Below, in pieces: positions 5,387-42,353 of a stretch of 64,000 nucleotides of DNA. The translations under genes were made by a program, and so were the position numbers. The stretch spans positions 248,001 through 312,000 of the forward strand of contig NW_026973572.1 of the NCBI RefSeq assembly GCF_963855985.1, in the 5' to 3' direction. The stretch's first letter is position 1, and every line of letters begins with the position of its first letter. The notes beneath the pieces were generated by a model. The model ran no database searches, was not told where the DNA came from, and saw only the letters and a list, made by a program, of their open reading frames with translations. This DNA comes from Ostrinia nubilalis. Lineage: Eukaryota > Arthropoda > Insecta > Lepidoptera > Crambidae.

Positions 5387-5390
5387 CGTA

Positions 5391-6932
5391 GTCGTACTAG
5401 ATGAGGCGGGGAAGGTCCTCGAAAGGATCATCGTTTCCCGCCTCACCAAGCACCTGAATGACGTGGGCCCCAACCTGTCGGAGTGGCAGTTCGGCTTCAG
5501 GGCTGGGCGCTCTACACTTGACGCCTTGTCCGCCCTGAAGTCCAAAACAGAGGAGGCTGTATCCCGCGGCGAAAGGGCACTGGCGGTGTCGCTCGACATC
5601 GCCAACGCCTTCAATAGTCTGCGCTTTGACACGATAGTGTCGGCGCTCCATTATCACGGAGTGCCGGCCTATCTCATCAGGATAGTGGCGGACTACCTGC
5701 GGGACCGACAGGTCAGTCTTGTTGGCGCGGATGGGGAGCTGGTCTAGCAGCGGATTTTCCGCGGGGTCCCCCAGGGGTCGGCCTTAGGGCCGACTCTTTG
5801 GAACATTGGCTACGACAGTGTGTTGCGGTGCAGGCTCCTTAGAGGGACGAGCCTGCTTTGTTACGCCGACGACACACTTGTCGTGGCCACAGGAAGGGCC
5901 CTGCCGGAACTCTGCCTGCGGATAGAGGCGGCCACCGAAATGGTTGTGGCCCGTATCAGGGCGGTGGGCCTGAAAGTGGCCCCCCATAAGACCGAGGCCC
6001 TAATGTTTCACGGGCCTCGGAAGGGACCGCCACCAGGTGCCCACCTCAATATAGAGGGTGTCCGTGTGCGGATAGGGGGCCAGATGAAGTATCTGGGCCT
6101 AGTGTTGGACGGGCGGTGGAACTTCCACGCCCATTTCGAGGGCCTGGCCCCCAAACTTACAGGGGCGGCAGCTGCATTGGGCAGACTGCTGCCTAACACG
6201 CGGGGCCCCAGCGTGAGCTGTCGCAAACTCTACGCTGGGGTTATAAAGAGCATGGCCCTATACGGGGCTCCCATATAGGTGGGTTCTCTCGACAGAGAGA
6301 ACCGTGTCGCTCTGCGGCGCCCGCAGCGCACCATCGCTTTGCGGGCGATAAGAGGGTACCGCACCGTATCACACGGGGAGCGCCCGGCATACGAGGAGGT
6401 GGAGCGCGTCCGCGAGCTTGCCCGAGAGGAGCTTCTGCGGCGCTGGGAGCGGGAATTGGTGGACTGCCGCTATGGCGTGAGAACCATAGAGGCGATCTGC
6501 CCGGTCCTGGACCAGTGGGTGTATCGGAGGCACGGCTTCCTCACCTATCGTCTGGTGCAGGTGCTAACCGGACACGGATGCTTCGGTTGGTACCTGCATC
6601 TGATCGGTAGAGAGCCGAGCCCTGAATGTCACGAGTGCGGCGCTGCGGAAGATACGGCTCAGCACACCCTTGAGGTGTGCCCAGCATGGGTCCAGCAGCG
6701 CCGGGCTCTGACTGCGGTGACTGGTCCGGACCTCGCGCTTCCCAGCGTCGTGGTTGCGATGCTCCTGGGCGAGAGCGCGTGGGACGCCATGGTCTCCTTC
6801 TGCGAAGAGGTGATGCTGCAGAAGGAGACCGCGGAACGGGCTAGGGAAGTAGATCCCGAAGCCCACGCGCTCCGGCGCAGACGGCCGGGGGGAAGAAGGA
6901 GGACATTCGCTCGCCTCCTTCCGCCTCCCTAG
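5391..6932 (+). pseudogene. R1-like ORF2, RT and C-terminal zinc region
   Basis: This continues the R1-like ORF2 after the LINE A insertion: EAGKVLERIIVSRLTKHL, SLDIANAFNSL, then a TAG at 5745-5747 before RGVPQGSALGPTLWN. The catalytic block is LLCYADDTLVVATG. A second TAG lies at 6276-6278. The C-terminal part contains a CHECGAAEDTAQHTLEVC motif (C-x2-C-x7-H-x4-C) typical of R1-clade proteins, and a basic tail (RRRRPGGRRR). Both stops are single transitions from probable Gln or Trp codons. The frame is otherwise preserved, which suggests moderate age. Confidence 0.88.
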
Positions 6933-13801: not shown

Positions 13802-14044
13802 TGTACGGGTTACCGCACATATGTTAATGTCAACGACATACCTAATCTAGGTCACTTAGAAATAGCAATTATGCACACTTTTATACGTCACGTACGTTCG
13901 TACTTCTGCTATTCTATCATTTTATAAATAATTGTGTTATGTGAAATAAATCAGTGTTATTACGACTATCATTGGGTTTGGTTTCGTACACTAACTATCC
14001 CATACAAATCGTCGGCACTCATCCTGTAACTGTAAGACGCTACA
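13802..14044 (+). repeat. 5' LTR of the BEL/Pao element
   Basis: It starts TGTACGGGTTACCGCAC and ends ..AGACGCTACA, the TG..CA form. The same 243 bases recur at 27655-27897 with no difference that I could see. An AATAAA is present near 13945. Confidence 0.93.
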
Positions 14045-14439
14045 GTTTCTTTGGTCCTTCGAGAAACAACTCAACAACGTGATCCTCATCTCTCGTCGAC
14101 GCTCGGGGATGCTGTGATCTACATCATCAAACAACTATTGAGGTTCCATCGACGCTTGGGACTTCTATCCTTACAACAGTGGCCCTACGCTAAAGGTACT
14201 TTGTGTTTTTTGTGGATTTTTTACGACTGCGAATCGGTTGACTGGCCTCCGGGAAGAGGGAATCCCCGGTTTAATTGAGAAGGCGCATAAGGTCGTACTT
14301 AGTTCACTAGGACATAAGGTATCCCGGACCACTGCATCAAACTTTCACGTCGACTTGCGAGAAAGTATCATCAATCAAACAAACCAGTGTGTGAAAAACC
14401 TTCATCTTCGGAAGTGTCACCACATGATCAACCACAAAC
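14045..14439 (+). other. BEL/Pao leader with primer binding site
   Basis: TTTGGTCCTTCGAG lies at 14049-14062, close to the LTR. A TGGTCC-type sequence is a common BEL/Pao primer binding site. About 395 untranslated bases follow before the polyprotein ATG. Short open frames occur here but none looks real. Confidence 0.6.
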
Positions 14440-17400
14440 ATGGAGAGTCTACTTCAGCGCCAACACGACATTGTTGAAGCGATCAAGAAGGTAGAACGCA
14501 ACTTTAACAAGGATTCCGCTATCAGGAAGACTCGTAAGTACTTGGATGAACGACTCGATACCCTTGACAAGCTATGGGCCGAGTTTCAAGGCAATGACCA
14601 CAAGTTATCGAGTTATGAAAACGATAAGGATCCTTACTTCGTGGAAGATCAATACCGACAAGCAAGAACATACTTCGATTCTGTGCGTAACAAGATATCG
14701 TCGTTTCCTCCTGCAAGTGAAACCGCTGCATCAATTTCTCCTGCAGCGCTGCCTAAGTTCGTGCAACCTGAAACGGTTACATTGCCGACACCACCTAAGC
14801 TACAGCCAAGACTCACGATGCCGTCTACGTCGACAGCGCTGACGACATCTTCAGATCAGGGTCAGGCCGCCGAACTTCTATCTCTACAACAAACGAACTT
14901 CAGAGCTTTTCACCGACAAGTAAGAAGCCTGCGAATTGACGACATACGTGACAAATGGGAATTGGAAGACGAGTTACGCAACATTCAAACACGTTGGAGT
15001 GCAATCGACGCTTTGCACCTTCAAATCGACAACATTCTACAAGGTTCAAATACACAGTACGACGACGAGTTTTATGCCTACGAAGAATCATACAAAGGCA
15101 TTAAAAAGGCTCTGAACCTAAAACTTGCATCAACTGTGCATCTTCAACAGTCGACACCACAAATCGACATACCAACCTTTACGGGCAAATATACCCAATG
15201 GCCTACATTCTACGACATGTACGTGGAAAGTATTCATAACAACAACCTCCTTACCAACACGCAAAAGATGCAACATTTGAAAGGTAAACTGCGTGGAGAT
15301 GCTGAGCGACTAATTCAACATCTACACATCTCAGCTGATAACTATGAGACGGCATGGGAACTGTTAACTCACAGATACAACAACCCTCAACTGTTGTTCA
15401 CAAAACAGATTGAAATCTTCATCAATCAACCCGCCGCTCACAAACAGTCGGCATTTGAGATCAGACGTCTGTATGACACATCCATGGAATGCATTCATGC
15501 CATACAGAACCTAGGTATCGACACAAGTACCTGGGACCCGCTACTTGTTCATCTAATTGCAAAGAAGTTGGACACTGAGACATACAGTGATTACAAGGAG
15601 GCACGCAAATCGCCACGTGACTTACCATCACTCTCTGAACTTATGAATTTCCTAGAAAGCAAGTTCAACGCGCTTGAGCCAATAAGCACGACTGAGAGAC
15701 AAACATCATCATCTAACAAGAATTATCAGCAAAAGATGATAACAAACAAGAAATTTCATAAACCTCAATCTCAAAATGGTGGCGGTCATCACTATAAGAA
15801 ATTTGAAAACAGAGAATTTCAAGCTATTGCGACATGTTCGACAAACTGTCCTATATGCAACAACAACCACTACCTATACAGATGCAGCAAGTTCATGAAA
15901 TTGTCGCCTGACGAGAGGTTATTAACCGTCCTTAAACTCGAATTTTGTCAGAACTGTCTATACGCACACGAAGACAGCCAATGCACGTCACCAAAAAGAT
16001 GCAAAGTTTGTAAAAAACCTCACAATACTGCATTACATGAAGCATACGCGAACGTGAACCTTGCGCAACAGTCATCGAACAGGCCGGCCGAGTCAACTAG
16101 GTCATCGCCCGTGCCTACAACTCCAATTACGAACAAACTTCAAATTTCAACACATCAAGATAATAAACAACATATTGTCAATCACGTAGCAACGGATGAT
16201 GAAGAGATTCTACTCACGACGATATCAATCAAGGTCAAAACTGCTGATGGTACATACGTCACCCTGAGAGCTCTCTTGGATCAAGGCTCTCAGATATCAC
16301 TCATTTCCGAAAACGCTGCTCAGATGCTGGGCTTGCCTCGACAACGGTATCACGCATCGGTATCTGGCATCGGGAATGGATCTAAACAAGGCAAGGGAGT
16401 CGTCACACTCACCTGCCAATCAATATATGAAGACTATGAGCTTACGACACAAGCATTAGTCATTAAGCATGTCATCAACAATCTGCCCAACGTGTCCTTC
16501 AATAAACAGTCATGGCCTCATCTACAACATATACAATTGGCTGATCCGGAGTACAACATCTCCAGACCAATTGACCTCCTTCTGGACGCAAGTGTATACT
16601 CTGACATCATTATGAGCGGTCTAATCAAGGGCTCATCACCTATCGCTCAACAAACCAGGATGGGCTGGATACTCTCTGGCAACGTCAAAACATTTAATTG
16701 TCACGTTGTAGTGAACAATTTGTCAGATATATCCCAATATTGGGAGCTGGAAGGAATTAGTGACCCAGTTACTGAATTGACACAACAAGAGCAATACTGT
16801 GAGCAAGTCTATAAGTCTACAACAAGACGCTTAAGCACAGGAAGATATGAAGTTGCGATTCCCATGAAGCCTGGATTCGAACAAGATCTAGGTCAATCCA
16901 AAAGTAAGGCGATCGCTCAGTTTCACAACATGGAGGGCAAGATGTCAAGAAACAAGGAATTCTGCGAAAGTTACAAACAATTTTTGAGAGAGTATGGACA
17001 ACAAGGTCACATGTCTCTAGTTACAAAACACAATGAAAAACCATCGTGCTATCTCCCTCATCACGGTGTGTTGAAAACTGATTCGACTACAACTAAGCTT
17101 CGAACCGTCTTCAATGCATCCTCGAAAACATCAACCGGGCGCAGTCTCAACGATTTAATGGAGCGCGGTCCTAATCTACAAAAGGATCTACAGCATCTCA
17201 TCTTGGTATGGCGTCAACACAAATACGTTATAACCGCTGATATCGAGAAGATGTTCCGCCAAATAAATATTCGTGAACCCGATCAACATTTACAACGCAT
17301 TATATGGAGGAGCACACCGCTGGAACCACTAAAGGAGTATCAGCTTACAACTGTTACCTACGGGACAAAGGCAGCTCCTTACCTGGCAATGCGCACTCTA

Positions 17401-18885
17401 AAACAGCTGGCCTTGGACGACGCGCATAAGTTCCCCTTGGCTGCTGCTGCACTGATGTCGTCATTCTACATGGATGACCTACTTGAAGGCTGCGACGAAA
17501 TATCTCAAGCTAAACAACTGCAACAAGAGATTATCGACATACTCAAGGGAGCTGGAATGAATATTCGCAAGTGGTCCAGTAATACTCACGAACTCATTGA
17601 AGATTTGGCAGCAGAACAACTAGATGCGCCACTCGACTTCAAGAGCTCTGAGAACAGAAAAACCTTGGGCCTACGTTGGAACCCTACTTCGGACACCTTC
17701 TCATTCAAAAACATATTTCAACAAGAAACAAGTGACAACACAATAACAAAGAGACAGTTGTTATCAGAGATCTCTAAGATCTTCGACCCGTTGGGATGGC
17801 TATCTCCATTAACGATACGTGCAAAGCTTTTATTTCAACGTACATGGTCTGAAGAATCAATAGAGTGGGATCAATGTCTACCTGAAGACATTAACAACAA
17901 ATGGACACAACTGAAAAGTGAACTTCAACACATTGAAGATTTCAAAATCCCTAGATACCTAGGAGATAAAAACAAATATTCAGTACATGGCTTCTGCGAC
18001 GCGTCAGAAAAAGCATACGCCTGCGCAGTATACGTCACTACTACAAATTCTAAGGGCGAAGTCACATCGACGCTTGTGACTGCAAAGACAAAATTGGCAC
18101 CTTTGAAAAATAAGTTATCTCTGCCTAAACTGGAACTTTGCGGCGCGCTCTTACTATCACAGCTCATAAAGAAGGTAGTTGAAACATTACCACAGCAAGC
18201 TATAATACACGCATGGACCGATTCCATGGTGGTACTTGGTTGGCTCCATGGAGACATCAATAGATGGAAATTGTTCGTTGCCAACAGAGTTCGAACAATA
18301 CTTACCGTCATCCCATCATCAGCTTGGCATCACGTCCGATCTGAAGATAATGCAGCAGATTGCGCTACAAGAGGACTGACATCGCTACAATTGTCAGAAC
18401 AAACCTTGTGGTGGCAGGGCCCCCATTGGTTGGTTACATTTGATCCGAACAGTATCAAAGATAACACATACCAACCACCTGCGTTAGAAACCAAGAAATC
18501 GAATGTGAACGTGGCCTTAACTTATAAAAACGATTTAGTTGTACAATTATTACATGAGTGCAGCTCGACACTACGCATGGCAACAACAATCGGCTGGCTA
18601 TCACGTTTCACACAGTGGTTGCGCAATAAACAAATACCACGACAAAGTTACCTATGCACGACGGAAATGCAATGCGCCCTCAATTTGATTATAAAGACTG
18701 TTCAATCTATGGAATTTGAAGACGAGATTGAACAACTTCAGAATCAGAATAAAGTCAAGAGTTGCAGTAAATTAGCGAGCCTCAACCCTTACATCGACCC
18801 CCATGATGGATTGCTTCGAGTAGGCGGGAGATTAAACAACTCGTCACTTAGTCAATCATCAAAGCATCCGATAATATTGTCAAGT
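14440..18885 (+). CDS. BEL/Pao polyprotein, Gag to RNase H (first part)
   Basis: The ATG at 14440 opens 1482 codons up to the nested insertion; the residues after 18885 come from the inserted LTR. Residues 1-240 are a coiled-coil-rich Gag start. A DUF1759-type Pao Gag block (FTGKYTQWPTFYDMYV) begins near 245. Two Cys/His knuckle clusters lie near 470 and 505-535. The protease motif is LLDQGSQISLIS near 610, a DQG variant typical of Pao. The RT catalytic block is FYMDDLLEG near 1010 and the connection IFDPLGWLSPL near 1115. RNase H starts at HGFCDASEKAYA near 1184. No internal stop is seen. The product would form the particle and copy the RNA. Confidence 0.93.
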
Positions 18886-19802
18886 TGTGACGCGCCCCAG
18901 GACGCATCGACAGCCCTAGCACCGAGCGCGGAGATTTTGACAACCCTACGGCTGCGCGGCCGCACGCCGCACGGACCGAGTTAATATAAGAGACGGCGGC
19001 GACCGCGGGCGCCTAGCATTCGCTCGGGAGCCATTGTAACAGCCAGACGTTCGCGCGCGCGTCTATCATTCCCTCGGCTGCATTGCAAAGAGTCCCTAGC
19101 GAATAGCTATCCACATTGTTCCTTACTAACCCTAACTGTTCGACTTTGGCTTGATCCGATACCTCGTCATTAATCCGCGGCTTGCCATAAAGCGTCGTGT
19201 CGAGACGTTCTATCGTTGATAGCCAACCGGTTCTCGTCCTTACCGAGTAGTGCATGAGATACTCATCCCGAACCTGCGGTAGCAATCCTGCTGCCACCCT
19301 TCCTGAACTTCACACCCCCTCGCCCCGTAGGTCCAACGCCTTTCCCCAGTGGTCGCGCTCACTATTGAGGCTTCGGTCTCTGGCTCGAGCTAATCGGACC
19401 ACATCCTACCCCCCTAGTTATAAGTATCCAGACTAACACTCGATAAACCTCGCACAGGGCGCCGCCCCTCTCGCGGATACGAAAGTTAGCTAACGGGACG
19501 CGAACCGGGCGCGTCGTTATTCCTCTTGTTGTAATTAGTAAATTGTGATATAAATTGTAAAGTACTTGTAAACTTGCTCATTATTAAATGATAGCGATTT
19601 AGAGTCAGTGAAACTAGAATAAGTGAACTATTGTGGAACCTAGATTATAAAGTGCCATTGTGTTATTGATTGTGCGTTTCCTTGGTCAAATATCCCTGTA
19701 GGCATCCCGGATAGGTACACATCCCTCATCGCAGAAGGCGAACTGGGACTTAGTACTAAACAGCGGGGTGTCAGACTGAGCTAGCTAAGACGCCCCGTTG
19801 CA
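18886..19802 (+). repeat. 5' LTR of the RT-less element
   Basis: It begins TGTGACGCGCCCCAGGACGC and ends ..GCCCCGTTGCA. It is 917 bp, GC-rich in its first half, and matches 23542-24458 with no difference seen by eye. TTAATATAAGAGACGG near 18981 looks like a TATA-type promoter. The small open frames within it occur identically in both LTRs and are not considered genes. Confidence 0.95.
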
Positions 19803-19803
19803 A

Positions 19804-19814
19804 TGGCGCCCAAC
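19804..19814 (+). promoter_or_regulatory. Primer binding site, tRNA-Lys type
   Basis: TGGCGCCCAAC lies one base after the LTR. It is complementary to the known 3' end of insect tRNA-Lys (..GTTGGGCGCCA). The match is 11 bases, shorter than the 18-base match of family X. Confidence 0.8.
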
Positions 19815-19909
19815 TAAATAACCCACGGAACCTACAGGGATCACCAGATCGCTAGAGAAGCGAAAGACCACAAGGAAAGCAAAACTTCGCACCAAATTGA
19901 TAATCACAC

Positions 19910-22069
19910 ATGTCAGAACCGACATCTTGGATATACAAACTGAAGAAGACAGAACTTGAGAACGAGTGCAAAAGAAGAAACATAAAAACGGAAAACAGAA
20001 CCGTACAAGAACTGAGACAGAACCTCACAGAAGTACTCAGAACCAGAAAACAATCCGAAACAGAAGCAAAGCAGTCCCGTCAACCAGTCCAGTCCGCCAG
20101 TAAATCCTCCGAAGAACAGTCTAACAGTGAGTCAGAAACCGATTTTGAAGACACAGAGATGCACCAAGAACCAAACATGTCGTACACCATGGATCAGACC
20201 GAAAACATAACATCCAGATGGAACCTAAGCTTCGATACATACAACGACCCGGTGGAGTTCCTAGAGCAACTGGACGAACTCATGTCATCGGGCGAGGTCA
20301 AGCCAGATAAAGTGCTCAAAGTGCTCCCCAGATTCCTGAAAGGAAAGGCCGTACTGTGGTATAGAAATAATAAAAACTCGTTCACTACATGGAACGAATT
20401 CATAGAACTCTTCAAATTGACATTTGTGAGCTGTGACAGTGACCTGTTAGCTAAAATAGTGAATTATAGGCAACATCACCGCCAAAAATTCACAGACTAC
20501 CTCATTGAAATACAAACACTCATGCGCAGATACGCAAAAATTTCAAAAGAGGAAGAAATAAATAGAATCTACGAAAACATGAACGCAAAATACAAGTTTT
20601 ATATCAAGAAATCAGAAGCAGACTCGTTAAGCAAATTGATACAACTGGCAAACGACTACGAGAACGTCACAGCAGAACGTCAAACTAGCTTCACAGAAAG
20701 AAAACCACGAAATGATCACCACGAAACAAGCACAAGTCAAGGACACAAGGAGACGGCTTCATACATACACAATTACAACACAAATACTTGCTGCTGGAGC
20801 TGTGGAAAACAAGGACACTCGATGAAAGATTGCAGAAGTAAGAAAATACTATTTTGTAACGGTTGTGGCAAGATCGGCAAAATGAGTAAACAGTGTTGTA
20901 AGAAAACAAGTGAGTACACACAGTCCATGACAATAAACACAAGTCCGCAACTTAAAGATAACCGTCCCTTCGTAGATGTATCGATACTAGGCGAAAAATA
21001 TCAAGCACTCGTAGACACCGGCGCCACAAGATCATACATCAACGACCAAGTGTACAAGAAATTCGTGAAAAGAAACTTGAAACCGAAAACAGTAAGCATA
21101 ACAGCTAGCATGACAGATGGGCACACAACTCGAATTAAAGAAGCACTAGACTTGGAAATAAATATAAAAGGAAAAACAATTAACCACCAAGTGTTATATC
21201 ATCCACAAATCACGAGTATACTGATCGGCATGGACGTATTAAATAGAATAGGAGCCAAAATAGAATGGCCCAAAGATAGTAACAAGCAAGGGGAACAAGT
21301 GGGAACAACGTCAAGAAAAAGTACAGAAGCCAACATCGTACCTACGTACGAAATGGCCGAAACACCGACAAGTATGAAAAAACACAAGATCAAACTCGCA
21401 CACGAAAAATCAATCAAGAAAAAAGACGATGCACGGAACCCTAAAAGTCAAGAAGTAATAAATAAACACGTAACACGCTTAAAACAAGAAACAAAAGAAG
21501 ACTGGATCCAAAAGAAAATTCAAGAAATACAAAAAACCGGAAACAAGGACTATAAAATGTCAAACAGCAAATTATACAGGAAAATAATAAATCACGCATA
21601 CGGCCCAAGAACAGAAACATCATCAGACTGGAAATTATGCATAAACAACAATGAAAAAAACCAGATCCTGAAAGAAAACCACAATACACCTACCGCAGGC
21701 CATCTAGGAACAGCAAAAACACTGAACAAAATATCACAGAGATATTATTGGCCCGGTATGTACAGAGATGTGTCAACGTACGTCAAGAACTGCATAACCT
21801 GCCAAGTTAACAACGCACGCAAACCCTGGAGCGCAGTGTCTACAGACCCGAGTAGACCACTAGCTAGATCACCAAACCGGTCCACAGACTGGACCGAAAT
21901 CCTCGAGGTCGACACCGTCGACCACCCACAAGACCTGGACTGGCGCGAGTCCGGCCCTGGAGAGGAGCCGACCCGAGCCGAGGACCAGACCAGGAGGCGG
22001 CCGGGGAAAAAGAAGAGGCGCGGCCAAATCCAGAACCAGCTAAACAAGGCCAGTAACATTTACTCGTAG
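19910..22069 (+). CDS. Gag-protease-integrase-zinc fusion protein (719 aa)
   Basis: The ATG at 19910 follows about 100 bases of leader. Residues 1-45 look like a small SAP-like helical motif (WIYKLKKTELENECKRR). A Ty3-type capsid region spans about 100-250 (DPVEFLEQL, FLKGKAVLWYR). A CCHC knuckle (CWSCGKQGHSMKDC) lies near 294; a second knuckle near 317 has Lys where His is expected (CNGCGKIGKMSKQC). The protease motif is ALVDTGATRSYI near 365. A Lys-rich linker follows. It then joins directly to an integrase HHCC domain (HNTPTAGHLG.. YYWPGMYRDV.. CITCQ, about 589-630). A basic tail (RRRPGKKKRRGQ) ends it. RT, RNase H and the DDE core are absent, yet the frame is open, so the deletion was frame-preserving. 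Confidence 0.93.
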   Translation: MSEPTSWIYKLKKTELENECKRRNIKTENRTVQELRQNLTEVLRTRKQSETEAKQSRQPVQSASKSSEEQSNSESETDFEDTEMHQEPNMSYTMDQTENITSRWNLSFDTYNDPVEFLEQLDELMSSGEVKPDKVLKVLPRFLKGKAVLWYRNNKNSFTTWNEFIELFKLTFVSCDSDLLAKIVNYRQHHRQKFTDYLIEIQTLMRRYAKISKEEEINRIYENMNAKYKFYIKKSEADSLSKLIQLANDYENVTAERQTSFTERKPRNDHHETSTSQGHKETASYIHNYNTNTCCWSCGKQGHSMKDCRSKKILFCNGCGKIGKMSKQCCKKTSEYTQSMTINTSPQLKDNRPFVDVSILGEKYQALVDTGATRSYINDQVYKKFVKRNLKPKTVSITASMTDGHTTRIKEALDLEINIKGKTINHQVLYHPQITSILIGMDVLNRIGAKIEWPKDSNKQGEQVGTTSRKSTEANIVPTYEMAETPTSMKKHKIKLAHEKSIKKKDDARNPKSQEVINKHVTRLKQETKEDWIQKKIQEIQKTGNKDYKMSNSKLYRKIINHAYGPRTETSSDWKLCINNNEKNQILKENHNTPTAGHLGTAKTLNKISQRYYWPGMYRDVSTYVKNCITCQVNNARKPWSAVSTDPSRPLARSPNRSTDWTEILEVDTVDHPQDLDWRESGPGEEPTRAEDQTRRRPGKKKRRGQIQNQLNKASNIYS

Positions 22070-23530
22070 CTTAACTTTATACCTAAGTTAGGTTTCTAAT
22101 AGATAGATTCTATACAAAACACATAGTAATTGTCTAGTCAGTTCTCGTTAAAGTAAATTCATCAATATTAAAAACAAGTCAATAATGTAAAAGTATTAAT
22201 TAACATTACAAAGCAACCCTGTATAACCTAGATCATTCAGTTCTTGAATTTAATCTCGTTAAATACCACATAATAACCTATAAGTATTAATTATCATTAG
22301 AAAGTAACCCTGTATAATTTAAATCGTTCAATTGTTCTATTTAATCTCGTTAAATAACTATTGACGCAAATCGCATTGTTATTTACTCGTAACTCGCAAC
22401 CTAAACTCACATAAATAACAAACCGGTTTGTTACGCGTCAATAGTACTACCAGTATCTCGATAACTTTTAAATAGTAAACAAACATTCTAAGAACGATTC
22501 ACCGAGCGAGCTCATTTGCATATTATCAGTGAGACGCATTTTTTCTATTCGCCACGGCCGGCACTCGCTCGCTAGATGATTCATAACTAGATTTTACCTG
22601 CCTAATGTTTGCGCGCCGCGCCAAGCTGCATTCCATTTACATTAGGAAATATTGTTTATTGTAACCAAAACTTAACCCCTTAACTGCCATTGTCTTGTAT
22701 AACTTTTAATAATTATTATAGAAATTATTAACATTAATCAGATACCTATTCTGAGCATACTAATTTAAATAATTTAAACTAGAAATAATAATAACAAGCA
22801 CCATGCATACTATTATTGTATCAAAGAAATATTTCAAGTAATATTTTAATACTCGTAACACAGAATAATATAATTGAATACTGGTAATAACAAAGTAAAC
22901 AACAGACTCGTTTAATTAGTTCATTGGTTAATTGTAAACAAAAGGTCAAAGGTATCTTAATAACATTGTTTCAAAACTAAGTTAACTAAAATTAGCGTTT
23001 AATTAGTTCATTGCAAACAAAAAAAAAATTACAGGTACCTTAATAACATTGTTTCAAAACTAAGTTAACTAAAATTAGCGTTTAATTAGTTCATTGTAAG
23101 CAAAATAAAATTAAAGGTATCTTAATAACATTGTTTCAAAACTAAGTTAGCTAAAATTAGAGTTTAATTAGTTCATTGTAAGCAAAATAAAATTAAAGGT
23201 ATCTTAATAACATTGTTTCAAAACTAAGTTAGCTAAAATTAGAGTTTAATTAGTTCATTGTAAGCAAAAAAAATTAAGGGTATCTTATTAACATTGTTTC
23301 AAGACCAAGTTAGCTAATATAAGTAAAAAATTAATGTCCCGTCATGTTTTAAATAAGGAGTTATTATTGGGCTAACGATTAATTACAAGTTCAGTCATGT
23401 TTTATATTTTAATTTTTACTCGTTATGAAGCTACCCAAGAATAACTTATTATTAACATGAATAATTTTAGTTGTTCTTGAAAAACCTTTATGTACCAGAC
23501 TTGTGATTTTTCCAGGTAAAAATCTCCAAA
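22070..23530 (+). other. Repeat-rich non-coding 3' region of the RT-less element
   Basis: This is AT-rich and non-coding. It carries two copies, 91 bases apart, of an about 75-base unit (from 22191 and 22282; shared ends AAGTATTAAT and TTTAATCTCGTTAAATA). It also carries the 82-bp array listed separately. A GC-rich block with GAGCGAGCTC lies near 22500-22620. It replaces the missing pol region in position and may serve packaging or transcription, which I cannot test. Confidence 0.75.
22909..23321 (+). repeat. Tandem array, five units of about 82 bp
   Basis: Units start at 22909, 22996, 23079, 23161 and 23243, each beginning (C/A)GTTTAATTAGTTCATTG and containing AACATTGTTTCAA. The third and fourth are nearly identical; the first and last are more diverged. 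This is the usual pattern of a growing array. It lies just upstream of the purine tract. Confidence 0.93.
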
Positions 23531-23541
23531 ACAAGGGAGGA
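23531..23541 (+). promoter_or_regulatory. Polypurine tract of the RT-less element
   Basis: ACAAGGGAGGA abuts the 3' LTR start TGTGACG. Its position and composition are those needed for plus-strand DNA priming, so this cis element is kept although the RT gene is lost. Confidence 0.85.
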
Positions 23542-24458
23542 TGTGACGCGCCCCAGGACGCATCGACAGCCCTAGCACCGAGCGCGGAGATTTTGACAAC
23601 CCTACGGCTGCGCGGCCGCACGCCGCACGGACCGAGTTAATATAAGAGACGGCGGCGACCGCGGGCGCCTAGCATTCGCTCGGGAGCCATTGTAACAGCC
23701 AGACGTTCGCGCGCGCGTCTATCATTCCCTCGGCTGCATTGCAAAGAGTCCCTAGCGAATAGCTATCCACATTGTTCCTTACTAACCCTAACTGTTCGAC
23801 TTTGGCTTGATCCGATACCTCGTCATTAATCCGCGGCTTGCCATAAAGCGTCGTGTCGAGACGTTCTATCGTTGATAGCCAACCGGTTCTCGTCCTTACC
23901 GAGTAGTGCATGAGATACTCATCCCGAACCTGCGGTAGCAATCCTGCTGCCACCCTTCCTGAACTTCACACCCCCTCGCCCCGTAGGTCCAACGCCTTTC
24001 CCCAGTGGTCGCGCTCACTATTGAGGCTTCGGTCTCTGGCTCGAGCTAATCGGACCACATCCTACCCCCCTAGTTATAAGTATCCAGACTAACACTCGAT
24101 AAACCTCGCACAGGGCGCCGCCCCTCTCGCGGATACGAAAGTTAGCTAACGGGACGCGAACCGGGCGCGTCGTTATTCCTCTTGTTGTAATTAGTAAATT
24201 GTGATATAAATTGTAAAGTACTTGTAAACTTGCTCATTATTAAATGATAGCGATTTAGAGTCAGTGAAACTAGAATAAGTGAACTATTGTGGAACCTAGA
24301 TTATAAAGTGCCATTGTGTTATTGATTGTGCGTTTCCTTGGTCAAATATCCCTGTAGGCATCCCGGATAGGTACACATCCCTCATCGCAGAAGGCGAACT
24401 GGGACTTAGTACTAAACAGCGGGGTGTCAGACTGAGCTAGCTAAGACGCCCCGTTGCA
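23542..24458 (+). repeat. 3' LTR of the RT-less element
   Basis: Same length (917 bp) as 18886-19802 and identical as far as I compared. It is followed by AAGT, the 4-bp target duplication, and then by the continuation of the BEL/Pao polyprotein in frame. Confidence 0.95.
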
Positions 24459-27400
24459 AAGTCACAGCAAATTTACCGAGCTTATTATACAACAGGCTCA
24501 CACTGTCACGCTACACGGCGGACCAAGCTTAACACTATCTTACATACGAGACAAATATTGGATACTTAGTGGGCTTCGGACTGTAAAGAGAGAGCTACGC
24601 AAATGTGTTAAATGTCGGCGATTCAAGGAAGAGAAAAAGACGCAGATGATGGCGGACCTACCACAGCCACGTGTCACACCCTCGCGCCCTTTCACACATA
24701 CTGGAGTTGACTTCACCGGTCACTTTGACATCAGAGCCAACAAGGGGCGTGGTGTGCGAACACATAAAGGATACGTGGCGGTCTTCGTCTGCTTAGCAAC
24801 AAAGGCCGTTCATTTGGAATTGGTGTCTGATCTTTCCACACCTGGGTTTCTGGCTGCATTTCGACGTTTTTGCGCTAGAAGATCAGTACCTAAACACATG
24901 TACAGTGATCAAGGAAGAAACTTTATTGGAGCGAATAAAGTATTGAAAAAGGAATACAAGGAGATACTGCAAACAATCGACATACAACTACTAAACAAGG
25001 CTACTGATTACGAAATTCAGTGGCACTTCAACGCGCCAGCTTATCCCTCAGCTGGTGGCCTTTGGGAGGCCGCTGTTAAAAGTTTGAAACACCATCTACG
25101 ACGAGTGATGGGAGAACAAAGGCTCACATACGAGGAGTTCATCACACTTCTTCATCAGATTGAGGCCTGTCTCAACTCGCGGCCCCTACTGGCTGTGAGT
25201 GAGAGCCAACACGATGAGTATCTTTCACCGGGACACTTCCTAGTTGGTGGACCGCTAATAACACGTCCACAAACGGATCCCGAACAAGTGAACTTGACCA
25301 CAAGATGGCAGATGGTCCAGGCAATGAATAAACAATTCTGGAAGAAATGGTCATCTGATTACCTACAACAACTTCAAGTTCGTTCTAAGTGGAGAACACC
25401 CTCAAAAAACATTGAAGTGGATGAAATCGTTCTAATCAAGGACGAAAACCTGCCTCCTGGCAAGTGGGCAATGGGCAGAGTAATCGAGGTACATCCGGGC
25501 AAGGACGGATACGTCCGTGTGGTATCCGTAAAAACTAAAAATGGGATTATGAAGAGACCTATTTTAAAATTAACAACCTTACCCGTGAAAGATGAATGTA
25601 CACAAAAACCAACAAATGACGCTCAAACACCGACATGTGATGACGTCACAACCGCCGACGCGCACTCAAACCAACGACAAAGGCGTGCGACGAGAAAACC
25701 TACAGCTTCATTTATTGCGATGGCGATGATGCTGTTCATGTCCTTCTTCATACCTGCACAGTGCTCATACAACATATCAACATTTGACGACCACCAAAAT
25801 ATTTATTTCGATAAGATGTATGAGATGAATCTTATTCGAGATGAATGGAAGTTAATCGTGTACTATAACATGAGTACCTACTGGTCAGCATTACATCACG
25901 TGGAGAGTTACGTCAATCACTTAGAAGAGTACCTACACACTGCCATGCTGCCAACTCAATACAAAAGCATCATATATCAATTAGAACACGAGTTAACGGA
26001 AATCGAACACTATAACCGCATACTCAAGGGTCAAGCTAACAGAAGACAAAAAAGAGGCTTGGTTGACGGTATAGGCTATATAGCTAACTCCTTATTTGGA
26101 GTACTGGATGAGCGCTTTGCGCAACAATATGAAAAAGACATAGAAAAAATCTCGCAAAACGAAAAGCACTTACAACTATTACTGAAAAATCAGACAAGTG
26201 TCATCGAATCCCAATACAATATTCTGCAGAGAAACGAAGCCATCATGAACAAGCAGTTTAGAATGGTACAGAAATACCTACAGAATGTAACGATGATAAC
26301 AAATCGATGGCAAGCAGAAACTAACAACGAGCTACATGTCTTATCATCTTCTATGTCAGCGATGATCATCATGAATAATCTTCGGAAAATGCAAGAGAAT
26401 GTGATAAATACTGTCACTGACCTCGCACAAGGTCATATGGACGCACATTTACTGCCACCGGAACAATTAGAAGAACAACTGAATATTATCTACAGCCACA
26501 TACCTAACGATCTGACTTTACCTGCCAACAAACATGACTTTAAGGAGATTTACAAGCTAATGAAAATTAGTGGTGATATGGGCTCTTCGTACTTGATAAT
26601 CGAAGTCAAGATACCTCTGGTAAACAAGGAAGGCTTTGAGCTGGACAAAGTAATAAGTCTTCCTCAGCACTCCTATATTGTAGAATTTCAAACACCATAC
26701 ATCGCATTCAATCTGCAAAGAGATCTACTTCTCACTCTAACAGAAACAGATGTTCAAAGCTGTATCCACGCACAGACAAACAAATTACTGTGCTCTATAG
26801 ATAAGCCAATATATGAATTAAAAATAACTCAGTCGATTTGTAACTTGAGTATTCATAACAAAACACTCTGCACTGCAAAGGAGGCGCCGTGTCACGAGCG
26901 ATGGATCAAGTTACATAGCGATAACAGGTGGCTATACTCATGTTGTGGGAAATGCTCGGTACGCATATTTTGCACCGACAGTGGAATGACAATGAAGTCA
27001 CTAACCGGGAACGGCCTTCTAGAAATCGGTCAAGGTTGTACCGTAGAAACTGACACATTCTCCATACTTGGACACAACAACTACTTGAGCCACGTTCAAG
27101 TCCAGAGGGACCTACCACTATTGTCAGAAACTTCGATCCTGAATTCCATATTGAATTCTTCAGGCATCGAGTTTACACCTGATTATCATGATGACGAGTG
27201 GCGTAGTATGGAGACTCAAATCCGAACCCTCAAAGAACAGGAGAATGCGCCACTCAGCATACACGACGTGCATCAGTACTCAGTTCTTTATACGATACTG
27301 GGCCTCATTATTGTCGCGGGGTGCATCTTCATGGTCATGCGATGGCGAAGAATCAAGGGAGCCCTCAACAAGGAGACTTCGAGCACTCAAGCGAATTCAA

Positions 27401-27507
27401 TTCCGATGACAGCAGTCGCCAGCGTCGATCAGGCAGCGGCCACACCACCGAGGACCCGACCACGATCTGTGCGACTGGACATCCCTTCTATTAACGTAGT
27501 TCAGTGA
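24459..27507 (+). CDS. BEL/Pao polyprotein, integrase and envelope-like (second part)
   Basis: The frame resumes directly after the target duplication in the same phase as 14440-18885. The integrase HHCC region (HTVTLHGG, later CVKCRRFK) comes first. The DDE core follows: Asp in HTGVDFTGHF, Asp in YSDQGRNFIGA, Glu in GGLWEAAVKSL. After about residue 400 a hydrophobic stretch (IAMAMMLFMSFFIPAQC) looks like an internal signal or membrane segment. A basic cleavage site RRQKRG (26041-26058) precedes a Gly/hydrophobic block with SLFGVLDE, as in baculovirus F and errantivirus envelope proteins. A Cys-rich region and a C-terminal membrane helix (VLYTILGLIIVAGCIFMVM) follow. No separate start codon or splice signal for the envelope part is obvious. 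Confidence 0.9.
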
Positions 27508-27654
27508 TGAAATATTTAAGTTATTCAAACTTGTTATTTGTATTTGAAATTGTTTACATTTTTATTGTTAGTTATCATTATTGAACTCTTAATTTGTTAC
27601 TTTATTTTACATTTATATAATATTTGACTTTGTCCTTCTTTTAGAGTGGCAGGA

Positions 27655-27897
27655 TGTACGGGTTACCGCACATATGTTAATGTCAACGACATACCTAATC
27701 TAGGTCACTTAGAAATAGCAATTATGCACACTTTTATACGTCACGTACGTTCGTACTTCTGCTATTCTATCATTTTATAAATAATTGTGTTATGTGAAAT
27801 AAATCAGTGTTATTACGACTATCATTGGGTTTGGTTTCGTACACTAACTATCCCATACAAATCGTCGGCACTCATCCTGTAACTGTAAGACGCTACA
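27655..27897 (+). repeat. 3' LTR of the BEL/Pao element
   Basis: Same 243 bases as 13802-14044. AGAGTGGCAGGA (27643-27654) stands before it as the polypurine tract. CTGTG follows as the target duplication. Confidence 0.93.
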
Positions 27898-33664: not shown

Positions 33665-36600
33665 TTATAGGTTTAATTTAACAACTTTTCTTTTTATTCT
33701 AGTACTTCTTCGTAAAGGGACCGCTTCACTCTCTGTGTTATTTCTACCCTCATCATTAAGTAACGGTATCTGAGATTCATCTCTTCCTCCCAGAACAGAA
33801 GGTTGAGCAATACAATTATCACTGTGATCATCGCTAGTATTATCAAAATTTTGATTGTTTGCTTCAACATTAGCAGAATTATTATTAGTACTCTCAACTT
33901 TATCATTGGTTGCTTCAACCCTCTCTTCTGAGTTACAATCGGTTGGCTTATATATAAAACTACTGCTAGGGCAACTATCATTAGAAATATAGTCATAGTC
34001 ATTTATTGGTCTAAATTGCTGTTTTGGTATCTGACTGCCGACTCCCCTTATCTGATTTATGTGTCTACGCCATCTCTCCCCAGAATCTAGTTCAACTGTA
34101 TAGTGTAATGAGCCTAATTTATTCAAAATAGTACCAAATTTCCATTTTTCCCGATCACTGTAATTTCTAGCTATAACTCGGTCCCCTACCTGTAATTTTC
34201 TTAACACATTGTGATTATTTTGTCCATTATTGACGTTTGGTTTGGGTAACAATAGTGACAACCGTGACCGGACTTTGTAGGAAAAAAGTAAATCAGCTGG
34301 AGATTTTTTTGTAGTAGTATGAGGGGTAATTCTGTACTGATGTAAAAAATGATTTAGTTTTTCGTGAATATTATTGTTGTTAGCTTTTAACGATCTTAAC
34401 TTGTTTTTTAATATTTGAACATGTCGCTCTGCTTGCCCGTTTGTGGCTGGGTTATAAGGGGCCGATCTCTTATGAAATATTCCTCGCTGTTTTAAAAACG
34501 CAGCAAATTTTGGGTTTACGAATTGAGTTCCATTATCACTAACTAGAACTTTAGGATAACCAAATCTAGAAAATATTTCATCTAAAGTTTTTATCGTGCT
34601 ATCTGTATCAATTTTGTTAATTATGTAAATTTCTGGCCATTTCGAATAAGCATCAATTAATAAAAGGAAATATTTACCTAAAAATTTACCTGCAAAGTCA
34701 ATATGAACTCGCTCAAATGGTTCTGAGGGATATTCCCAGTGGTGTTTCTCTACTTGTTTTGGGTTATTTTTTTGTTTGCAACAAGCTATACAGTTGTCTA
34801 CCATTAATTTAATATCATTATCTATCTCTGGCCACCAGCAAAAACTTCGAGCGAGGAGTATCATTTTGTTAATACCGAAATGGCCACTGTGTAAATCATG
34901 TAAAACTCTCTTCCTTAAATTCACCGGTATTACTACTCTTTGGCCCCTCATAATACATCCGCTTTGAACAGAAAATTCACTTTGGTCAATGTTAAATCTG
35001 TCTTTAGGAGATAGTTTTTTACCTAATAATAAATTTTCCAATAGTATTTTTAATTGCACATCATTACAAGTTTCAGCAGCTAATTCTTGTACTGTTATTG
35101 GTAGGGTTGTGATCTGATTTATTTCAATAATATCAGATTCTTCACATAAGTTTGTTTCTTTCATTTGAATTGGTAAACGTGACAACCCATCAGCATTACT
35201 ATTTTCTTTAGAAGATTTATATTTTATCTCATAGTTAAAAGTTTGTAAAAATATGGCATAATGTTGCATTCGAGTAGCCGACATGTGTGGTAATGGTTTG
35301 TTTGGAGCAAAAATTTGAACTAATGGCTTATTGTCTGACAGCAAAGTGAATTTTCTGCCATATAAATATTGAAAAAATTTCTTGACTCCAAATATTATAG
35401 CATATGCTTCCTTATCAATTTGAGACCATTTTCTTTGTGTTTTACTTAATGTTTGTGATGCCATTTGTATTGGTCTTTCAGTGCCATCTGGCATGACATG
35501 TGATATAACTGCACCTACTCCTATTGGCGAAGCATCAGTTGCCAAAATAATTGGTAATTTTGTAGAATAGTGTACAAGAAAAGTGTCAGATTGCATTTCC
35601 TTTTTTATTTTTTTAAAAGCTATGTCACAGTCAATCGTCCACTCCCATTTTGTTTCAAGTCTGAGTAGTTTATGTAGCGATTCAAGTGTTGTGGCTAGGT
35701 TCCCTAAAAATCGCCCATAATAATTTACTAACCCTAAAAACGATTTTAGTTCTGTAATGTTTTTGGGTGGTGGGGCTTTTTGTATCGCATCTATCTTAGA
35801 GGGTAACTTATGTATCCCTAGTTTACTTATTTTGTAACCGCAATATTCTATTTCTTTTTGTAAAAAGCTTGATTTAGTTAAATTAATCTTTAATCCATAT
35901 TCTGCAAGTCTAGAAAACACTAATTCTAATCTCTCTAAATGAACTTTGTCATTTTCCGCAGTAATTTGAATGTCATCGATGAATACAGCTATCCCTGGTA
36001 TACCTTTTAATATATTTTCTATTTTCCTTTGCCATTTTGCAGGTGCACAGTTTAAACCATACATTAAGCGTGTACATTTATAAAGTCCTTTATGTGTGTT
36101 AAGAGTGAGATATTTTTGATCCTGTTCCCGGACTTTCCATTGTAGGTACGCACATTTTAAGTCAATTTTGGAGAATTTTTCCCCACCAGCAAGTCCCGAA
36201 AACAATTCCTCTGTAGTAGGCAGAGGGTGTTCATCAACTATTATTTGAGAATTTAAACTGACCTTAAAATCACCACAAATGCGAACCTCGCCATTTGGTT
36301 TTGGTACTGCAACAATAGGTATGGCAAACTCACTATAATCAACCTTTAATAAAATACCTTGTCTTTCTAATCTATCTAGCTCTCTCCCTACTTTGTCTCG
36401 CAAGGCAAAAGGTACAGGCCTTGCTCTAAAAAATGTTGGCTTTGCTCCTTCTTTTAATTGAATTGACACAGGTTCTCCTTTTATTTCACCTAAACAAGAG
36501 TCATCAAATAATATGCTATATTTCTTTAATAAGCTGCCTAGTGCATGGTTGTTAGAGTCATTACTAAAATTTACTGAGTTTACCTTTAAGATATCAGTTA

Positions 36601-37714
36601 TTCTACCTTGGAAAAAATGACGTAGCCACTGACGACCAAACAAAGGGGTGTTGTTGTCCACATCAGATACCACGAACAGCTTCAGGTTTCTCTGCTTTTC
36701 ATTTTGTATCTCCACCTCTACGGTAGCAACTCCTACAACATGTAATAAATTATTAGAATAAGAACGCAACCTTATTTTTGTTTTTTCCAATTTAAGAAAA
36801 GGGAATTTTCTAAGAAACTCATTGTGTTCTATAATTGATACTGCAGCTCCACTGTCTAATTCCATATTAGTAGGTATTCCATTTATTTTTGTTTTAATAA
36901 TGATTTTGTCAGAATCCACTTTATTAATACACTGTACCTGGTATTCTTCTTGTTCTTCTACTGCATTGCACTCTTTTGTCTCTCTTCTCAGTTTTAAACA
37001 CGATCTCTTCAAATGTCCTTTCTTCTTGCAATAACTGCATTCCGCATCTAAATGTCGGCATTTATTTGCAAAGTGTGGACCTCCACACCGATAGCAGACT
37101 AATGACTTACTTGTAGTAATCCTTGTGACTTTGTTTATTGTGTTAGAGTTTTCCGAGATTTTACGTGTTTCAGCCCCCACTGCAATTTGAAGTGCTGTCT
37201 CAAGGGTTAATTCCTTCACTTCAAGCAATTTTCCCTGCACACGTTTGTCTGCAATTCCGCAGGTAAACTGATTTCGCAATGCTGTTGTGAGGAATGGTCC
37301 GAATCCACATGTGGCCGCCATCTTACGTAAAGCTGCCAGGTATTCACGAGCCGATTCGCCTTCCTGTTGCTGTCTGTGGTGGAATGTATAATATTCTGCA
37401 ATTTCCAGGGGTTGAGGGTCAAAGTGATCTAGCAGTATCTTCTTAAGATTACTATACGTTTGTGTCCTTGGCTCCGCCGGCGACAACAAGTCGCACAACG
37501 TGTCATGTACCTCAGTACCAATATAGTGCAGAAAATAGGCCACTTTGATGTCTTCATCCTGAATTCCAAATATTGTATATGCTCCCTCTAACCTGTCCAA
37601 CCACCTGCTGAATCTGGTTTGTTTCCCTTCATAAAATTCTATGAAATTAGGTGGTACGTGCGGACGATCTTGTGGGTTAACTTTTTGGTTACCTTTTGAT
37701 TTACTTTCTGCCAT
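33665..37714 (-). CDS. mag-like Gag-Pol polyprotein (1349 aa)
   Basis: The ATG at 37714 overlaps the PBS. Gag capsid spans about residues 20-190 (FIEFYEGKQTRFSRWLDRL, FHHRQQQEGESAREY). Zinc knuckles CYRCGGPHFANKC and CSYCKKKGHLKRSC lie near 205-235. The protease is ELDSGAAVSIIE near 285. RT has the catalytic block AVFIDDIQIT near 578, FIDD instead of the common YVDD/YLDD. RNase H has LATDASPIGVGAVI near 725. Integrase has HDLHSGHFGINKM and CIACCKQ, then HIDFAGKF (Asp near 1004), VSDNGTQF (near 1060) and NGQAERHVQ (Glu near 1094). The C-terminus is basic (RRSTRIKRKVVK). Gag and Pol share one frame, as in mag. It looks fully coding. Confidence 0.95.
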   Translation of the reverse strand: MAESKSKGNQKVNPQDRPHVPPNFIEFYEGKQTRFSRWLDRLEGAYTIFGIQDEDIKVAYFLHYIGTEVHDTLCDLLSPAEPRTQTYSNLKKILLDHFDPQPLEIAEYYTFHHRQQQEGESAREYLAALRKMAATCGFGPFLTTALRNQFTCGIADKRVQGKLLEVKELTLETALQIAVGAETRKISENSNTINKVTRITTSKSLVCYRCGGPHFANKCRHLDAECSYCKKKGHLKRSCLKLRRETKECNAVEEQEEYQVQCINKVDSDKIIIKTKINGIPTNMELDSGAAVSIIEHNEFLRKFPFLKLEKTKIRLRSYSNNLLHVVGVATVEVEIQNEKQRNLKLFVVSDVDNNTPLFGRQWLRHFFQGRITDILKVNSVNFSNDSNNHALGSLLKKYSILFDDSCLGEIKGEPVSIQLKEGAKPTFFRARPVPFALRDKVGRELDRLERQGILLKVDYSEFAIPIVAVPKPNGEVRICGDFKVSLNSQIIVDEHPLPTTEELFSGLAGGEKFSKIDLKCAYLQWKVREQDQKYLTLNTHKGLYKCTRLMYGLNCAPAKWQRKIENILKGIPGIAVFIDDIQITAENDKVHLERLELVFSRLAEYGLKINLTKSSFLQKEIEYCGYKISKLGIHKLPSKIDAIQKAPPPKNITELKSFLGLVNYYGRFLGNLATTLESLHKLLRLETKWEWTIDCDIAFKKIKKEMQSDTFLVHYSTKLPIILATDASPIGVGAVISHVMPDGTERPIQMASQTLSKTQRKWSQIDKEAYAIIFGVKKFFQYLYGRKFTLLSDNKPLVQIFAPNKPLPHMSATRMQHYAIFLQTFNYEIKYKSSKENSNADGLSRLPIQMKETNLCEESDIIEINQITTLPITVQELAAETCNDVQLKILLENLLLGKKLSPKDRFNIDQSEFSVQSGCIMRGQRVVIPVNLRKRVLHDLHSGHFGINKMILLARSFCWWPEIDNDIKLMVDNCIACCKQKNNPKQVEKHHWEYPSEPFERVHIDFAGKFLGKYFLLLIDAYSKWPEIYIINKIDTDSTIKTLDEIFSRFGYPKVLVSDNGTQFVNPKFAAFLKQRGIFHKRSAPYNPATNGQAERHVQILKNKLRSLKANNNNIHEKLNHFLHQYRITPHTTTKKSPADLLFSYKVRSRLSLLLPKPNVNNGQNNHNVLRKLQVGDRVIARNYSDREKWKFGTILNKLGSLHYTVELDSGERWRRHINQIRGVGSQIPKQQFRPINDYDYISNDSCPSSSFIYKPTDCNSEERVEATNDKVESTNNNSANVEANNQNFDNTSDDHSDNCIAQPSVLGGRDESQIPLLNDEGRNNTESEAVPLRRSTRIKRKVVKLNL

Positions 37715-42349: not shown

Positions 42350-42353
42350 CATT

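Follow-up and report, generated by a model that had tools for sequence, protein, structure and literature searches.

Structure of the element

The window analysed here is a stretch of 64,000 nucleotides from Ostrinia nubilalis, to which all positions refer. It contains an LTR retrotransposon on the plus strand. The 5′ LTR (917 bp, TGTGACGC...CCGTTGCA; 18886..19802) and the 3′ LTR (23542..24458) have TG...CA ends and are identical at 917/917 bases. They are flanked by the two copies of an AAGT target-site duplication (TSD), at 18882..18885 and 24459..24462. A primer-binding-site (PBS)-like sequence, TGGCGCCCAAC (19804..19814), starts one base past the 5′ LTR and is one we take to be tRNA-Lys-like. 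The polypurine tract (PPT), AACAAGGGAGGA (23530..23541), directly abuts the 3′ LTR. These hallmarks of an LTR retrotransposon, together with an open frame of 719 codons, had all been listed in an earlier, sequence-only reading of the locus and are confirmed. Between the frame and the PPT lies a non-coding, AT-rich stretch (22070..23529; G+C 27.5% over 22070-23541) that includes an 81-83 bp unit repeated in tandem (22937..23354). The element is itself an insertion in a BEL/Pao element, which has its own identical LTRs of 243 bp.

The single frame (19910..22069) encodes Gag, a protease, an integrase N-terminal zinc domain and a basic tail. Pfam matches within it are Retrotrans_gag (residues 140-224), RVP (350-451) and Integrase_H2C2 (579-637). 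At E values up to 1, the Pfam search of the frame listed neither an RT nor an RNase H family, and the sole entry for an integrase core was rve_3, located in Gag with a sub-cut-off E of 0.14. This confirms the earlier description of a frame devoid of RT, RNase H and DDE core; relics of RT and of the DDE core are left.

An N-terminal helical segment and Gag occupy residues 1-262 (19910..20695). They are followed by two cysteine-rich knuckles (residues 295-329; 20792..20896), with seven checked C/H positions that do not vary among 18/18 copies from the genome. The aspartic protease (residues 350-451; 20957..21262) has a DTG at 369-371, again invariant in 18/18. The sequence-only reading had the frame pass straight from protease to HHCC domain, with a junction near codons 560-590, and was mistaken on both points. 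In between lie ~36 residues left over from the RT N-terminus (residues 492-527; 21383..21490), and this relic meets the integrase N-terminal linker (residues 528-577; 21491..21640) at the actual junction, 527/528. The HHCC domain (residues 578-638; 21641..21823) matches a Ty3 chain at E 1e-7 and, less strongly, PFV integrase at E 1.3e-4, and its ligands H591, H598, C628 and C631 are invariant in 18/18 copies. The HHCC domain is followed by a remnant of the opening DDE-core residues (approximately residues 639-658, roughly 20 residues; 21824..21883), and then by the C-terminal tail (residues 659-719; 21884..22066). The tail matches the final part of a small open frame that lies beyond pol in the RT-bearing candidate helper described below; the protein match is weak (E 8e-4, 39% of 44) and the DNA alignment agrees with it. 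In a weak structure model (pLDDT 66, pTM 0.27) the HHCC part is predicted to be folded, at 79-86 over most of 571-630 with one block at 66, and the tail is not.

Copies in the genome

A protein search of the genome gave 2174 candidates; all 62 scored matches span residues 1-705, and 55 of them are without a stop. A 452-bp probe spanning the junction gave 129 candidates, of which the 40 scored were all full length at 96-100% identity. Copies with the same junction, which the sequence-only reading had proposed to look for, are therefore plentiful, and the numbers are lower bounds. Sixteen of sixteen full-length copies have their own 4-bp TSD, and their LTR pairs show no mismatch in seven and one mismatch in nine; because copies were chosen by similarity to the window, both their intactness and their youth are biased upward. 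Other LTR matches across the genome are 97-99% identical to the window LTR. The RT-less family is young, high-copy and recently mobile. One copy of 8.7 kb (L010) was considered as an RT-bearing version and rejected, as its ~3.1 kb of extra DNA has no ORF over 102 aa.

Selection on the frame

Values of dN/dS (omega) were obtained among 21 copies, in which pairs of copies are not independent and the intervals are wide for short segments. Omega is 0.11 in Gag (residues 100-262), 0.35 in residues 1-99, 0.30 in the protease (residues 345-460), 0.36 in the integrase linker (pN 0.034), 0.25 in the HHCC domain and 0.91 in the tail (residues 639-719). The omega of the HHCC domain was as high as that of the tail in 0.2% of codon bootstraps. 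Purifying selection acts on Gag, protease and HHCC and does not extend into the tail, in agreement with the sequence-only reading, which had suspected selection. Constraint at the RNA level was considered for the HHCC domain and rejected, since its pS is not lowered; at 0.082 it is close to that of the whole frame (0.097), and the constraint is therefore on the protein. The RT relic has an omega of 2.1 (0.75-9.8) with very few synonymous changes (pS 0.018), and an omega of 0.15 against the helper at a saturated dS of 2.3. It is a poor neutral control, and its pN of 0.037 hardly exceeds that of the constrained linker.

The RT-bearing candidate partner

Elements with a single Gag-Pol frame of 1357-1360 codons are present at four places in the same genome, with a stop in one of the four. 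A probe from the RT region of this candidate helper found seven copies at 99-100% and two short matches at 83% (9/9 candidates scored). The helper frame aligns in one frame with P0010, over Gag and then over 703-1580, spanning RT to integrase; with the domain order known for P0010 from an alignment of its own, the helper pol has the Ty3/gypsy (Metaviridae) order of protease-RT-RNase H-integrase. Among 29 scored RT matches, 25 fall in a 41% family (22 with a 1072-codon frame) and four in a 47% family. The latter was taken as the partner because it matched in LTR, PBS and Gag.

Comparison with the window element rests on one helper copy, read in pieces, whose TSD is AATT. Its LTR is 89.6% identical overall to the window LTR, and the last 60/60 and first 56/60 bases are the same. 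The PBS core is common to both (11/11 bases), as is the PPT stretch (30/30 bases before the 3′ LTR). A helper with matching ends and a full pol, as the sequence-only reading had envisaged, is thus present in the same genome. Identical residues number 146/161 in Gag (91%), 60/87 in the protease part, 35/48 in the linker and 42/54 in the HHCC domain, and across these four parts dS is 0.39-0.77 with an omega of 0.12-0.35. At the 5′ end of the frame dS to the helper is 0.10, whereas the protease and integrase pieces have values of 0.54-0.77. So deep a split at such omega values argues that the frame has been open over a long time.

Related RT-less lineages

RT-less Gag-protease frames with integrase pieces are also found in Plutella xylostella (P0002-P0004), in Phthorimaea operculella (P0005) and in the proteins P0006 and P0133. 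As in the window, RT and the DDE core are gone; the annotated Plutella and Phthorimaea frames are known from protein only and may be spliced gene models. The HHCC domain is intact in P0002, has lost ligands in P0003, P0004 and P0133, and is absent from P0005 and P0006, which shows that it is not generally required. The helical YWPG part is kept in P0003, P0004 and P0133, the full ligand set is not.

A single ancient RT loss common to the window, Plutella and Phthorimaea was considered, since the deletions overlap and since, before the helper was included, five RT-less lineages (window, P0002, P0003/4, P0005 and P0006) stood apart from the rest in the Gag tree (UFBoot 99). It was rejected once the helper was added, as window and helper then pair in Gag (100), PR (94) and IN-N (97). 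The junctions of the Plutella, Phthorimaea, P0006 and P0133 frames differ from that of the window, and the trees of the pieces indicate that these frames do not descend from the loss seen in the window. The same trees point to at least two independent RT losses among the relatives, and to three if the frames annotated in Plutella and Phthorimaea are genuine.

Comparison with known systems

TR-GAG elements are plant non-autonomous LTR elements with Gag as the only coding domain. The moth element resembles them in being non-autonomous with a Gag ORF kept, but differs by its protease and integrase zinc domain, both present and constrained. Barley BARE2, named as a precedent in the sequence-only reading, is the wrong one: it is reported to have a disrupted GAG beside otherwise intact genes, and is presumed to use the protein of a partner (PMC9744471). 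This is the opposite of the defect in the moth, where Gag is intact and constrained.

Two other systems are better precedents than BARE2. Wheat RLG_Sabrina_SA is described as a gypsy family of high copy number, termed semi-autonomous, in which the GAG-Pro ORF is intact and RT and INT are lacking, and whose partners were inferred from a common PBS and LTR termini (PMC9744471). The moth family has the same features: an intact Gag and protease frame without RT or active integrase, multiple copies, and a partner in the same genome with common PBS and LTR termini. The wheat family differs in belonging to a plant, in that the available text mentions no integrase domain for it, and in reportedly sharing hardly any other sequence with its proposed partner (PMC9744471), whereas the moth partner has an LTR ~90% identical and Gag and pol remnants in common. 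In mouse IAP 1-delta-1, an internal deletion creates a gag-pol fusion ORF; proteins are needed in trans, and the fusion is reported to act in cis (PMC6466679). The moth element likewise has one open fusion frame created by an internal deletion, and its dN/dS among copies agrees with a fusion protein that aids its own RNA in cis. The retrovirus-like mouse element loses part of gag and pol (PMC6466679), whereas in the moth element Gag and protease stay whole and the loss covers RT, RNase H and DDE core. A further insect repeat, CM-gag of Culex pipiens, has by the title of its paper, as cited in PMC3286476, only a gag gene, unlike the moth element. Among the matches listed in searches of the literature, no title or abstract opening names an insect Gag-protease-HHCC element.

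Proposed mechanism and alternatives

The element is very probably a semi-autonomous, helper-dependent LTR retrotransposon of Ty3/gypsy type, which depends in trans on the RT, RNase H and active integrase of an autonomous partner that is rare. Its own Gag and protease would form the particle and mature it, and the partner in the same genome would supply the enzymes for mobilisation. With PBS, PPT and LTR termini the same or nearly the same, those enzymes could carry the RT-less RNA through priming, copying and integration. The protein would act mainly on its own RNA, and this presumed cis preference would explain why the frame stays under selection. The retained integrase module (linker and HHCC), catalytically empty, would be used at the protein level.

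The rival in which the ORF is a passenger has the helper provide everything including Gag, so that only LTRs, PBS, PPT and a packaging signal are needed and the frame is open through youth. The helper does encode its own Gag and all 16 dated copies are very young, but the domain-dependent dN/dS within the same copies (from Gag through HHCC to the tail) and the deep split from the helper, with its long-open frame, make this improbable. Still less credible is interference, with the RT-less Gag-protease as a defective particle protein mainly suppressing its helper. Truncated Gags that restrict relatives are known in Ty1 p22 and Fv1, and RT-less copies outnumber RT-bearing ones (129 junction-probe candidates against seven RT-probe copies). 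Against it, the protease is intact and constrained, and the element's own spread is recent and repeated, which marks a mobile family and no single-locus factor. A one-off internal deletion in a single element, which the sequence-only reading had tied to a sole copy or diverged LTRs, has practically no chance of being right; it is refuted by dozens of same-junction copies, with an own TSD in each of the 16 compared, and by the identical LTRs.

For the HHCC module within the helper-dependent element, the likeliest role is that of a docking handle, capturing the integrase-bearing Pol of the partner into RT-less Gag particles; by our own estimate this falls just short of an even chance. A less probable alternative is that the module is kept to bind cDNA or the ends of the LTRs, to activate the protease or to promote dimerisation. 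In solved intasomes such N-terminal domains touch DNA and neighbouring subunits, and the matches to Ty3 and PFV integrase and the invariant ligands favour it. Zinc-dependent DNA binding sits less well with P0003, P0004 and P0133, in which a YWPG part without full ligands better fits a protein contact or plain decay.

A joint reading is more speculative still, and we hold it doubtful as a whole. RT-less, DDE-less Gag-protease elements keeping part of the integrase N-terminus would have arisen repeatedly (at least twice, probably three or more times) in one insect gypsy group. The dead zinc module of the moth would be a selected adapter that loads the Pol of a rare partner into the particles of an abundant one, and the two would form a single retroelement of two components that divide the labour. 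Its RT-less half would be old, in line with the dS contrast along the frame, and kept compatible by exchange of ends with the helper through template switching.

Significance

One frame holds its own control here, with a constrained zinc domain next to an unconstrained tail. The same genome yields a likely partner, and RT was lost independently in at least one related lineage. Three questions become directly testable: why Gag and protease persist in non-autonomous LTR elements, whether the proteins of these elements act in cis, and what role an integrase N-terminal domain has without its catalytic core.

Architecture and surroundings

The LTR element described in the sequence-only reading occupies 18886-24458 (+) and is flanked by the AAGT duplication noted there. 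Its two 917-bp LTRs are identical at 917/917 positions; the PBS, TGGCGCCCAAC, lies one base 3' of the 5' LTR, and the purine tract (PPT), AACAAGGGAGGA, precedes the 3' LTR. The sole long coding-strand frame outside the LTRs, 19910-22069 (+), is indeed a Gag-protease-integrase zinc frame, with two cysteine-rich knuckles, an aspartic protease (DTG at residues 369-371) and an integrase H2C2 (HHCC) domain. The frame is followed by ~1.46 kb of non-coding, AT-rich sequence containing repeats of 81-83 bp. The best protein match is P0001 of Ostrinia furnacalis (90% identity over 72% of the frame), which points to an Ostrinia moth as the probable host.

The element is inserted within a BEL/Pao element whose own 243-bp LTRs are identical. 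This host element (13802-27897) has a Pao peptidase, an RT and, in the frame that follows the integrase, a Baculovirus-F-like envelope domain; flanking bases suggest a CTGTG duplication, and the insertion point adjoins the integrase zinc-domain match. The window is dense in retroelements. Translations of 33665-37714 (-) and 42320-45102 (+) read as two more pol regions, RT-/integrase-like. Two LINE-like reverse-transcriptase regions, 3902-5632 (-) and 54430-57305 (+), were picked by eye from the ORF list and, again by eye, appear to be close kin.

A replicating family

Searching the 495-Mb assembly (52 contigs) with the LTR gave 404 candidates; the best 40 were scored and 40/40 matched. In these, the other copies' LTRs show 97-99% identity to that of the window, so several sub-lineages have moved recently. 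Twenty loci were fetched. LTR dating used the window copy and 15 loci (L009-L023) for which the scored matches included both LTRs in the same orientation; L024-L028, where an LTR was truncated by the fetch, solitary, incomplete or rearranged, were excluded. A one-off deletion, the alternative weighed in the sequence-only reading, is not what was found: 16/16 copies have their own 4-bp duplication, and their LTR pairs differ by 0 (7 copies) or 1 mismatch (9 copies). The same internal junction is present elsewhere, as a junction probe matching the helper RT probe in length gave 129 candidates, which are not confirmed copies, and 40/40 of the best scored were full length at 96-100%.

The ORF (704-721 aa) is open in 18/18 copies, namely the window, L009-L024 and L026, a count made without L025, L027 and L028. 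From 2174 candidates in a protein search, the best 62 were scored; residues 1-705 were covered in 62/62, with no stop in 55 and one in 7, five of these in one tandem array on contig C38. As the scored sets are best matches, they overstate how intact and how young the copies are, and the counts are lower bounds.

The array (L039-L042, C38:10500-50499), on the same contig as the window (C38:248001-312000), holds five RT-less ORFs with one TAA each, and LTR-like segments ~90-96% identical to the window's LTR, split by extra DNA. Copy L010 is 8669 bp long; its 3' non-coding part carries extra DNA that resembles nested insertions, and no RT frame was seen in it. The RT-less copies L024 and L026 have a different tail after KKRRG, hence the C-terminus varies between sub-lineages.

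The probable helper and the origin of the frame

A helper with matching LTRs and a full pol was found in the same genome. Searching with the autonomous relative P0010 gave 3766 candidates; among the best 29 scored, four places carry a single frame of 1357-1360 codons with Gag and RT-to-integrase, uninterrupted in three and with one stop in the other. The pol is 47% identical to P0010. The RT region occurs at 7 places at 99-100%, with two short 83% matches (9/9 candidates scored).

Helper features were read in pieces (L043-L046) from one copy, which has an AATT duplication and LTRs of 887 and 900 bp separated by 3 mismatches and 2 gap runs. Its LTR and that of the window share 89.6% identity overall, and the last 60/60 and first 56/60 bases agree. 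The PPT agrees at 30/30 bases; the PBS has one difference in 30 bases, outside the 11-base core, a variant common to the RT-less copies L020 and L023. A small open frame (L045, C31:8431103-8431670; 189 codons stop to stop) overlaps the pol end in another frame and is very basic at its end. Judged by sequence, the tail of the RT-less protein evidently derives from the end of this small frame.

Two large stretches of the helper are missing from the window's element, one of ~1.2 kb that separates the RT N-terminus from the integrase linker and one of ~1.1 kb lying between the first DDE-core residues and the end of the small frame; there are smaller gaps as well. ACTGGA stands on both helper sides of the second join, as would be expected for template switching. 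Window-helper dS rises along the frame, from 0.10 (residues 1-99) through 0.39 (Gag), 0.65 (protease part) and 0.54 (linker) to 0.77 (HHCC), with omega of 0.24, 0.12, 0.27, 0.35 and 0.16, respectively. The RT relic (18/36 residues identical, dS 2.3, omega 0.15) is short and saturated and carries no weight. Divergence that is deep in the core and shallow at the ends suggests an old RT-less lineage that may have exchanged its ends with the helper.

Selection on the frame

Omega was calculated with our own script by the Nei-Gojobori method, pooling pairs among 21 copies, with 95% codon bootstrap intervals. The whole frame gave 0.31 (0.26-0.39). Over the Gag-protease part, where a dN/dS comparison had been proposed, values were 0.35 (0.14-0.84) for residues 1-99, 0.11 (0.07-0.17) for Gag 100-262, 0.15 (0.03-0.56) for the knuckles and 0.30 (0.18-0.54) for the protease. 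Downstream, they were 0.44 (0.23-0.99) for linker 461-491, 2.1 (0.75-9.8) for RT relic 492-527, 0.36 (0.17-0.80) for the integrase linker, 0.25 (0.12-0.51) for the HHCC and 0.91 (0.61-1.39) for tail 639-719. The tail is a sound neutral control (pN 0.071, pS 0.078). The RT relic is unsound as one, since its pS is just 0.018 and its pN of 0.037 hardly exceeds the integrase linker's 0.034.

In 0.2% of bootstraps the HHCC omega was as high as the tail's; an earlier 18-copy run with slightly different borders gave 0.24 for the HHCC and 0.95 for the tail. In 18/18 copies there is no variation at the DTG, the four ligands of the HHCC or seven positions in the knuckles. The HHCC pS (0.082) is close to the whole frame's (0.097), and the constraint is therefore on protein, not RNA. 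At the frame start pS is low (0.057), perhaps owing to a signal in the RNA or to a recent exchange.

Independent losses of RT

RT, RNase H and the DDE core are likewise missing from the matches P0002-P0004 (Plutella), P0005 (Phthorimaea), P0006 and P0133, whose junctions differ from the window's. Piece trees place the window with the Ostrinia helper (support Gag 100, PR 94, IN-N 97) and P0133 with P0010 and P0129 (Gag 100, IN-N 99), so the Ostrinia and P0133 losses are independent. P0133 had no qualifying PR match. A third independent loss is probable in the Plutella-Phthorimaea group, whose members are annotated gene models known from protein alone. No close RT-bearing lepidopteran relative appeared among the protein matches listed (best 120 of 155 in one search), where search length and word limits could hide one; the sole named lepidopteran RT-bearing match in one protein search was P0141 of Loxostege, which is distant (E 6e-9).

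Proposed mechanism and known systems

Most likely, the element's own Gag-protease would form and mature particles favouring its own RNA, and the helper's RT and integrase would work from the element's PBS, PPT and LTR ends, which match those of the helper. Selection constrains the HHCC module at the protein level. As its role we tentatively prefer, at somewhat under even chances, a dock for the helper's Pol, which carries the integrase; DNA-end binding or aid to protease activation are the rival roles. The ligands are lost in P0003, P0004 and P0133 and the whole domain in P0005 and P0006, which argues against zinc binding as a general requirement.

Among published systems, the nearest architecture is RLG_Sabrina_SA of wheat (PMC9744471) and the nearest logic IAP 1-delta-1 (PMC6466679); in barley gag-bearing non-autonomous families, the PBS region is the part best conserved with their partners (PMC5738225), and CM-gag is a gag-only insect repeat (cited in PMC3286476). 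This kind of element is therefore already known. What is new against these systems is that the integrase zinc domain is kept under selection, that a helper matches the element, and that losses recurred within one insect group.
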